DNA from: Azotosporobacter soli
GTDB taxonomy: Bacteria; Bacillota; Negativicutes; SG130
DNA: 64,000 nt
Reading direction: 5' to 3'
Assembly (NCBI RefSeq): GCF_030542965.1
Contig: NZ_JAUAOA010000013.1
Location: 1-64,000 of the forward strand
How positions within the stretch are numbered: position 1 is the stretch's first letter; each line of letters starts with the position of its first letter. The notes beneath the pieces were generated by a model that worked only from the letters and a program-made list of their open reading frames with translations, had not been told where the DNA came from and made no database searches. A program made the translations under genes and the position numbers. Of the stretch, positions 1 to 31,107 are shown one piece after another.

Positions 1-80
1 AGGGGTATATTACCGCCTGTTTTTCAACGTTTTTTCGAAAAACTGCGTTTTTGCAGTGAAAATTGGATAACTGAAATTGA

Positions 81-115
81 AAAATGCACCTTACGCTTTG
101 CGTAAAGTGCATTTT
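81..115 (+). terminator. Hairpin with terminator-like form
   Basis: The sequence forms a stem of aaaatgcac / gtgcatttt with an inner ttacg/cgtaa stem, giving an A-tract/T-tract hairpin that could terminate in either direction. The gene it serves would lie before the window. It directly precedes the first copy of the dispersed element. Confidence 0.55.
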
Positions 116-126
116 GTCGACGGTCT

Positions 127-363
127 GGAGCGAGCGGCGCATGCCGCTCGCTTCCTTGAGATTGTCGAGAAAACGAAAGCAAGCGGGATTTTTTTAACAC
201 GAAGAGTCGAAGAAGGGAAGGTGGGAAGATTTTATTATTCTGCCATACTTTTTGCCGGGCCGATAGCATCGGCCCGCTTCGCTTCTTCGTGTTATATTCG
301 TACCCATTCTATTTTAAAATCGTCTACGTTCTGAAGGGAGCGAGCGACGCGCGTCGCTCGCTC
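127..363. repeat. Dispersed structured element, copy 1, with flanking duplicated hairpins
   Basis: The core (158-336) shares most of its sequence with 1571-1740 and 30909-31081. It contains the conserved string cgaaagcaagcggg, an outer stem (acacgaag ... cttcgtgt) and an inner hairpin gggccgat/atcggccc at about 257-274. It is bracketed by two near-identical GC-rich palindromes, ggagcgagcggcgc... at 127-154 and ggagcgagcgacgc... at 337-363. The right palindrome is followed by six T and looks like a Rho-independent terminator. No coding potential was seen. The element fills most of the 618-base gap before the first gene. Confidence 0.8.
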
Positions 364-1458: not shown

Positions 1459-1556
1459 CTATGCCGGACGTTACGGTTGAAAAAGAACGATTTGAGGCAC
1501 CGGCGGCATAGGCGACACGGAAATCGTTGCGTGTTTAACTGTTTTAAATGCTAAGC

Positions 1557-1753
1557 CGTGCAGCGATTTGCGACTGTCGACAAAACGAAAGCAAGCGGGG
1601 TATTTTTACACGAAGAGTCGAAGAAAGGAAGGTTGGAAGAATTTTTTATTCTTCTTCTTTTCTTTCCGCCAGGCCGATGCGATCGGCCCGCTTCGCTTCT
1701 TCGTGTTATCGCATTTAAATTTTCAATTGTCCACACTCTGAGGCGTGCAGCGA
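1557..1753. repeat. Dispersed structured element, copy 2
   Basis: The core at 1571-1740 is about 80% like copies 1 and 3 by eye. It begins ctgtcgacaaaacgaaag and ends gtccacactctg, an imperfect terminal inverted repeat. Inside are a purine/pyrimidine stem (ggaaggttggaagaa with ttcttcttcttttctttcc) and the hairpin ggccgat-gcg-atcggcc. It is flanked by a direct repeat cgtgcagcga at 1557-1566 and 1744-1753. The rest of the 537-base gap between glpF and the SMR gene shows nothing else recognisable. Confidence 0.8.
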
Positions 1754-1890
1754 CTTATGTGTTTCAAAATAAATCTTCAACAGCTTCGCTTATTTTTGGT
1801 TACGGTTGGCAGAGAAAAAGATTGCCAGCATCGGCGATGTCTGATATAACGGAGTAGGACTTTTCACCGGGAAGAAAGGAAGCGAAAAAG

Positions 1891-26245: not shown

Positions 26246-27163
26246 ATGAACGCGTGCGGTATCATCGGTCTCGGTAGAATGGGGGCTGCCGCGGCAGCGC
26301 ACTTGGTAGAGCAAGGGCATCGGGTAGTTGTCAGCGATTTGGCGCAGGACCAGGTCGCGGCGCTCGCGGCGAAGGGCGCGACGCCGACGGCATCGATTAA
26401 AGAGCTGGTGCGACTTTTGCCGCAGCCGCGCGTCGTTTGGCTGATGCTGCCGGCGGGTGAGGCGGTGGAAAGCGTCTGTTTTGCAGCGGGTCAGCTGTTT
26501 GACTGTCTGGCGGCGGGCGATATCGTCATCGACGGCGGCAATTCGTTTTACCGTGACGCCGTGCGGCGTGCGGCGCGCTTTGCGGAAAAAGACGTTTCTT
26601 ATCTCGACTGCGGCAGCAGCGGCGGCTTGGAAGGCGCGCGCAGCGGCCTTTGTCTGATGCTCGGCGGCGAACGTAGCGCTTTTGAAGAGAGCGAATGGCT
26701 TTTCAAGGCTTTGAGCAGCCCGGCGGGCGACTACGCCTATATCGGGCCAAGCGGCAGCGGTCATTTCGTTAAGATGGTGCACAATGCGATCGAATACGGC
26801 ATGCTGCAAGCGATCGGTGAAGGCTTTGAACTGCTTGAAGAAGGACCGTACGATGTTAATATGGCGCAAGTAACGGCGCTGTGGAACAAAGGCAGCGTGA
26901 TCCGCTCTTGGCTGATGGAACTGCTGCATGACGCGCTGGTCAAAGATCCCGGCCTCGCGGGCATCGGCGGCGTTGTCGGCGGCGGCAGTACCGGCAGTTG
27001 GGCGATCGAAGAAGCATGGCGCGCAGGCGTGCCCTTTGCAACGATTGCGGCATCTTACGCCGCACGTTTGCAAACAAGGCAAAGCGAAGCCTTTTCCGGC
27101 AAAGTCGTAGCCGCGCTGCGCAACGAATTCGGCGGCCATCCCATTGTCCCGGCGAAAAAATAA
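26246..27163 (+). CDS. gnd: 6-phosphogluconate dehydrogenase, short NAD-type
   Basis: 305 aa. Rossmann start GIIGLGRMGAAAAAHLVEQGH (GxGxxG), an acidic residue after the second strand (VSDLA) favouring NAD+, substrate motif DCGSSGGLEGARSG, and catalytic GHFVKMVHNAIEYGMLQ (Lys and His-Asn). The enzyme oxidatively decarboxylates 6-phosphogluconate to ribulose-5-phosphate. The approximately 300-aa length matches the YqeC/GndA-like short class, not the 470-aa Gnd. ATG follows gggggagg. No other pentose-phosphate gene is adjacent (rpiB is 30 kb away). Confidence 0.88.
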   Translation: MNACGIIGLGRMGAAAAAHLVEQGHRVVVSDLAQDQVAALAAKGATPTASIKELVRLLPQPRVVWLMLPAGEAVESVCFAAGQLFDCLAAGDIVIDGGNSFYRDAVRRAARFAEKDVSYLDCGSSGGLEGARSGLCLMLGGERSAFEESEWLFKALSSPAGDYAYIGPSGSGHFVKMVHNAIEYGMLQAIGEGFELLEEGPYDVNMAQVTALWNKGSVIRSWLMELLHDALVKDPGLAGIGGVVGGGSTGSWAIEEAWRAGVPFATIAASYAARLQTRQSEAFSGKVVAALRNEFGGHPIVPAKK

Positions 27164-27169
27164 GGACAT

Positions 27170-27214
27170 AAAAAGGAGCTGTCTCAAAATAAGATTTGAG
27201 ACAGCTCCTTTTTG
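27170..27214. terminator. Bidirectional terminator
   Basis: A 19-bp stem (aaaaaggagctgtctcaaa with its complement) and T tract between gnd (+) and the small basic protein gene (-). Its stem core gctgtctcaa also occurs in the 3575-3610 terminator. Confidence 0.9.
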
Positions 27215-27221
27215 GCTTGTT

Positions 27222-27359
27222 TTATTTACCCCGACCCGCTTTGCGCATCGGCATTTGGCGGTTGGTGTTGGCGCCGGCCGGTTTCAGCGGCTTTTGGAAG
27301 GCTTTATTGTTTTCGGCGGCCTTCTTTTTCTTTTCGGCTAACAGAGCGGCTAAATCCAC
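27222..27359 (-). CDS. Small basic protein, 45 aa
   Basis: A short frame on the minus strand with GTG start after an excellent ribosome site (gggaggg, nine bases away). It encodes VDLAALLAEKKKKAAENN ... QKPLKPAGANTNRQMP and ends MRKAGRGK. It is strongly basic (lysine-rich helix followed by a Pro/Asn-rich tail) and probably binds nucleic acid or ribosome. It sits convergent to gnd with a bidirectional terminator between. Not recognised as a named family. Confidence 0.65.
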   Translation of the reverse strand: MDLAALLAEKKKKAAENNKAFQKPLKPAGANTNRQMPMRKAGRGK

Positions 27360-30882: not shown

Positions 30883-31107
30883 GGCCGTCTTGTTTTGGCA
30901 AGGCGGCCGAGACTGTCGACAAAACGAAATCAAGTGGGACGTTTTTACACGAAGCGTCGAAGAAGGGAAGGCAGGAAGAGGTTTTAAATTCTTCTTCCTT
31001 TCTTTCCACCGAGCCGATACGATCGGCCCGCTTCGCTTCTTCGTGCTATCGGATGTTGTTTTTAAAATTGTCTTCACTCTGGGCCGTCTTGCTCTGGCAA
31101 GGCGGCC
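30883..31107. repeat. Dispersed structured element, copy 3, between duplicated terminators
   Basis: The core (30909-31081) matches copies at 158-336 and 1571-1740. It has termini gagactgtcgacaa and ttgtcttcactctg (imperfect inverted repeats), an outer acgaag ... cttcgt stem, a purine/pyrimidine stem, and the hairpin gccgat-acg-atcggc. On both sides stands the same hairpin, ggccgtcttgttttggcaag... (30883-30908) and ggccgtcttgctctggcaag... (31082-31107), 24 of 26 bases identical. Only the right one is followed by a T tract. It fills most of the 387-base gap after tmk; nothing else is recognised there. Confidence 0.85.

Follow-up and report, generated by a model that had tools for sequence, protein, structure and literature searches.

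In the genome of Azotosporobacter soli, a short element recurs between doubled palindromes. The best interpretation makes it a MITE belonging to the IS1182 family, and makes the doubling of the palindrome a target duplication as long as the hairpin. It is highly probable, in our judgement, that this IS1182-type MITE is mobilised in trans, that the transposase targets palindromes, and that joining near the feet of the palindrome leads to duplication of the whole of it. The reading draws on the family of a resident insertion sequence (IS), the ends that it has in common with the MITE, the duplications around both, their centring on the dyad, and empty and filled sites in related systems, all of which we observed directly.

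Doubled palindromes in the window

The window (the whole stretch of DNA that was analysed, 64,000 nucleotides) holds three copies of the MITE. The contig start falls inside a 1544-bp IS, whose end at 1-127 was absent from the earlier note. The features are as follows (no strand is given for palindromes and target duplications).

1..127, minus strand: end of an IS1182-family IS (IS nucleotides 127 to 1 of 1544 bp; blastn 100%, NF033551)
1-105, plus strand: C-terminus of the transposase, coding, inside the IS end
110-127, minus strand: terminal repeat of the IS, CAGACCGTCGACAAAATG (end-motif search)
128..153: left palindrome of copy 1, GAGCGAGCGGCGCATGCCGCTCGCTT, doubling as one of two 26-nt target duplications of the IS at 1-127
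158..333, plus strand: MITE copy 1, without a gene of its own, ends GAGATTGTCGAG and CGTCTACGTTCTG
337..363: right palindrome of copy 1, GGAGCGAGCGACGCGCGTCGCTCGCTC, then TTTTTT; intrinsic-terminator-like
1554..1569: left target duplication of copy 2, AGCCGTGCAGCGATTT, poorly palindromic
1570..1740, plus strand: MITE copy 2
1741..1756: right target duplication of copy 2, AGGCGTGCAGCGACTT
30883..30908: left palindrome of copy 3, GGCCGTCTTGTTTTGGCAAGGCGGCC, without a T tract
30909..31081, plus strand: MITE copy 3
31082..31107: right palindrome of copy 3, GGCCGTCTTGCTCTGGCAAGGCGGCC, then TTTTT; terminator-like

The near-identical palindromes that the earlier note had described on both sides of copy 1 are present at 128-153 and 337-363, and the T tract (TTTTTT) does follow the right one only. 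The note had placed the left palindrome at 127-154; the palindrome is real, but base 127 belongs to the IS, being its terminal base, and lies outside the hairpin. Folded as RNA, the left palindrome reaches -21.7 kcal/mol (128-157) and the right one -23.4 kcal/mol (336-368). The hairpin of copy 3 is unrelated in sequence to that of copy 1 and has the same layout, with a T tract on the right side only, as had also been claimed. Copy 2 has a duplication of 16 nt, with 14/16 positions matching, that is hardly palindromic. Elsewhere in the window, an inverted repeat at 27150-27233 (39-nt arms, 77% complementary, T-rich end) resembles a long terminator.

A resident IS1182-family insertion sequence

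A search of the genome for the ends of the MITE returned the 1544-bp IS, collapsed at contig ends, window positions 1-127 included. Its terminal inverted repeats, CAGACCGTCGACAAAATG and AGTTTTGTCTACAGTCTG, bracket a single open reading frame for a transposase of 485 aa, which NF033551 assigns to IS1182 (428.9 bits against a cut-off of 270, E = 2.7e-128) and which carries the Pfam domains DUF772 and DDE_Tnp_1_6. It is the sole intact IS1182 member in the genome. At C6:43135-44098 lie remnants weakly similar to IS1182 transposases, too decayed to be assigned as the parent of the MITE, and viral contigs gave no relatives of the transposase.

Five copies of the IS are essentially identical, which suggests recent movement, and the assembly breaks contigs at each of them. 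They are flanked by five different palindromes of 24-41 nt, each identical left and right. The left flanks (contigs C26, C32, C35, C37 and C13) and the right flanks (C30, both ends of C9, C12 and C20) pair one-to-one via identical palindromes of 41, 33, 33, 24 and 26 nt; no contig of the assembly runs across the IS, and the pairing of contigs is deduced from these palindromes. The second 26-nt target duplication of the IS at the window start is the end of C20. This IS interrupts the hairpin to the left of MITE copy 1, and the hairpin has therefore undergone two rounds of duplication. The order of events would be that the MITE came first and that the full-length resident IS1182 later entered its left hairpin, duplicating it again.

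The ends of the IS and the MITE agree at 15/18 positions on one side and 13/17 on the other. Since the terminal repeats of the IS match those of the element, and the IS copies too are flanked by palindromes, we read the element as an IS1182-family MITE: it is short, has no transposase gene, carries terminal inverted repeats like those of the resident IS and makes the same type of target duplication. Its interior does not derive from the resident IS by deletion, as blastn with the IS matches the window at 1-127 only; the two have only their ends in common.

A MITE family with a hairpin of its own at nearly every locus

The core occurs in about 40 copies of 170-210 nt in the 3.78-Mb genome; by length the copies form three groups, near 174, 191 and 206 nt. 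We placed 39 copies from stretches around core matches, and 22 of them have both ends intact. The ends, GAGACTGTCGACAAAACG and TTGTCTACACTCTG, are imperfect inverted repeats. In the 22 intact copies, the similarity of a copy's own left and right flanks averages 15.1, against 5.7 for mismatched copies, a value reached by none of 20,000 permutations of the flank matching. Folding is also much stronger in the flanks than in the DNA nearby (P = 2e-6 on the left, 1e-4 on the right). An ungapped duplication of 16-33 nt is seen in 17 of the 22 (assessed partly by eye); three loci have a duplication with small indels (L009, L019 and L020, again partly by eye), L005 and L022 have partial duplications only, and the flanks of L012, searched likewise, gave none. 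Where an element end has been lost, the hairpin on that side is absent (L010, L015, L018, L025 and L028, by eye). That the duplication goes with the element, as the earlier note had claimed, thus holds genome-wide, with a hairpin of its own repeated left and right at nearly every locus. The label of terminator, which the earlier note had given to the palindromes, suits most sites and is slightly too narrow: L003, like copy 2, is not a good terminator, because the T tract or a well-formed hairpin is missing there. The commonest arrangement of the neighbouring genes is convergent (18 of the 36 sites classified, from a crude ORF call).

One further copy, L037 (about 1400-1620), has a right flank that is an inverted, not a direct, copy of its left flank, perhaps because the insertion split the loop of a long palindrome. 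In 60 class-level relatives the element is absent, save for one weak 30-nt match; viral contigs lack the conserved core, and a contig search for the syntenic glpF region returned only distant Kbl relatives.

The left and right hairpins of a MITE differ less in the stem (27/292) than in the loop (22/94; P = 0.001). Compensatory changes occur in copy 1, L003 and L026 and, by eye, in L009 and L019. Such separate changes indicate that each hairpin keeps its own pairing, which argues against pairing between left and right. The cause could be selection on terminators in both directions, or correction of palindromes during replication.

Left-right pairing would be central if the two hairpins and the core formed one RNA regulator, in which this pairing switches the terminator as an attenuator or antiterminator. 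The stems are alike on both sides, so that they could pair, and the core folds strongly: the interior (197-293 in the window, and its counterparts) adopts a conserved branched structure with pairs kept in 786/814 cells. However, the compensatory changes spoil the left-right pairing; the genes that precede the sites are unrelated to one another, and many sites fall between convergent genes; and the same duplication surrounds protein-coding IS1182 elements without any MITE core. Nor does any Rfam family match the element, the sole match being a sub-threshold CsrC at 1423-1459, outside it. We rejected the antiterminator reading on these grounds. A regulator of this kind is therefore very improbable.

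Duplications of hairpin length in other IS1182 insertions

Among 31 IS1182 insertions in Bacillota, which include the five copies of the resident IS and several from the same IS in one genome and are not all independent, 27 have a duplication of 17-41 nt. The duplication is centred exactly on the dyad in 24 of the 27, and its end bases are paired in 22. At least 75% self-pairing is reached by 25/27 duplications, compared with 0.18% of random windows. Some palindromes run a few pairs past the duplication; hence the joining points are near the feet and not always at them. In three IS1182 copies (L110, L119 and L130) the hairpins on the two sides are not alike, as would follow from recombination between two IS copies. 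More distant members of the family, at L093 1380-2980 and L094 1370-3000 (31-32% identity; 31% for L093), look like insertions into a palindrome's loop that leave one arm to the left and the other to the right. At L093 the duplication appears to comprise the 5-nt loop AAGTT only, and intact palindromes occur nearby.

One could argue that the target duplication has a fixed length and that the element merely lands in terminators, the palindrome being included by chance. The duplication of copy 2, with little palindrome in it, and the palindromes that outrun their duplications would fit. Yet the lengths vary, even among the five identical IS copies, and chance inclusion sits badly with the dyad centring. 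We give this explanation only a slim chance.

Plasmids provide sites before and after insertion. Six of the seven plasmid IS1182 copies examined agree with palindrome duplication, and at three sites in Enterococcus plasmids the empty form holds one palindrome and the filled form two, at 98-100% identity. The empty sites, each with a single palindrome, are in:

pELF_AA55
pVEF3 and pJF3A-4253-2
pMP8-1

The earlier note had foretold that an empty site would hold one palindrome followed by a T tract, and this form was found here for related IS1182 insertions. Hairpins that travel with the element, as part of it or as tandem terminators attracting it, would account for every intact copy having hairpins on both sides, but we rejected this reading, the least credible of all, because no two loci have the same hairpin, in contrast to a core that is about 84% identical among copies, and because the empty plasmid sites hold a single palindrome.

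A proposed mechanism for copying whole palindromes

We propose that the MITE, with its IS1182-type terminal repeats, is mobilised in trans by an IS1182-family transposase, presumably that of this or a related IS. The target would be DNA palindromes, mostly intrinsic terminators, recognised in an extruded or symmetric state; extrusion as a cruciform is our supposition. Each end of the element would be joined to a different strand, at symmetric positions close to the palindrome's two feet, and gap repair would then copy the whole palindrome. The upstream A tract would be left behind on the left side and the T tract on the right side. A bidirectional terminator that is split in this way would thus have a hairpin for each direction, and terminator function would probably be kept after insertion.

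We lean slightly towards a broader statement: in a large branch of IS1182, the secondary structure of the target DNA would set the length of the duplication, with both strands of an extruded palindrome attacked near its feet and the whole copied. This terminator-sparing mode would have been used by the MITE family to reach about 40 copies, and both hairpins would be maintained by selection or palindrome correction even as the loops drift apart. For most transposases the target duplication is short and of fixed length. Here the duplication follows the palindrome, over 17-41 nt, in a widespread bacterial family and with both filled and empty sites. This suggests a way of spreading with little harm, in which a hairpin is left for both neighbouring genes after each insertion.

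Comparison with known systems

The preference of IS1182 elements for hairpins and terminators is already published; for the copying of whole hairpins, the literature that we found holds a proposal only. ISfinder reportedly lists IS1182 duplications as long and variable, and existing records, ISfinder above all, may document whole-hairpin duplication already.

Nearly all sites of ISCbo5, of the IS1182 family, are gene-end hairpins resembling transcription stop signals (PMC3098183), the same kind of target as here; the parts of that report available to us mention no hairpin duplication, duplication length or MITE (PMC3098183). The terminators of ISBma2 have been reported as IS-borne attenuators (PMC2965389). 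As a conjecture, some of the terminators that adjoin IS1182 transposases could be target hairpins that were duplicated. MITEPye1 of Paracoccus yeei (PMC11578231) is like our MITE in being non-autonomous and intergenic, with IS1182-like ends and strong folding. It differs in having 4-bp direct repeats and 1-3 chromosomal copies, whereas here there are about 40 copies and hairpin-length duplications.

A close parallel in targeting is given by IS1272 and TnSha1, IS1182-family elements of staphylococci that insert at inverted repeats and terminators unrelated in sequence (PMC5678879, PMC4923244). They have the transposase family and the targeting of hairpins in common with the Azotosporobacter elements. 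At IS1272 insertions the stem-loop is replaced or loses a part, and the target is not duplicated (PMC5678879, PMC4923244). We did not find this type of replacement in Azotosporobacter: IS1272 and TnSha1 lose the stem-loop, whereas the Azotosporobacter IS and MITE duplicate the whole of it. The apparent 5-nt loop duplication of L093 resembles pathway c of the published scheme (PMC5678879). Duplication of the whole stem-loop was drawn there as the hypothetical pathway b (PMC5678879), which now gains a data set and becomes testable.
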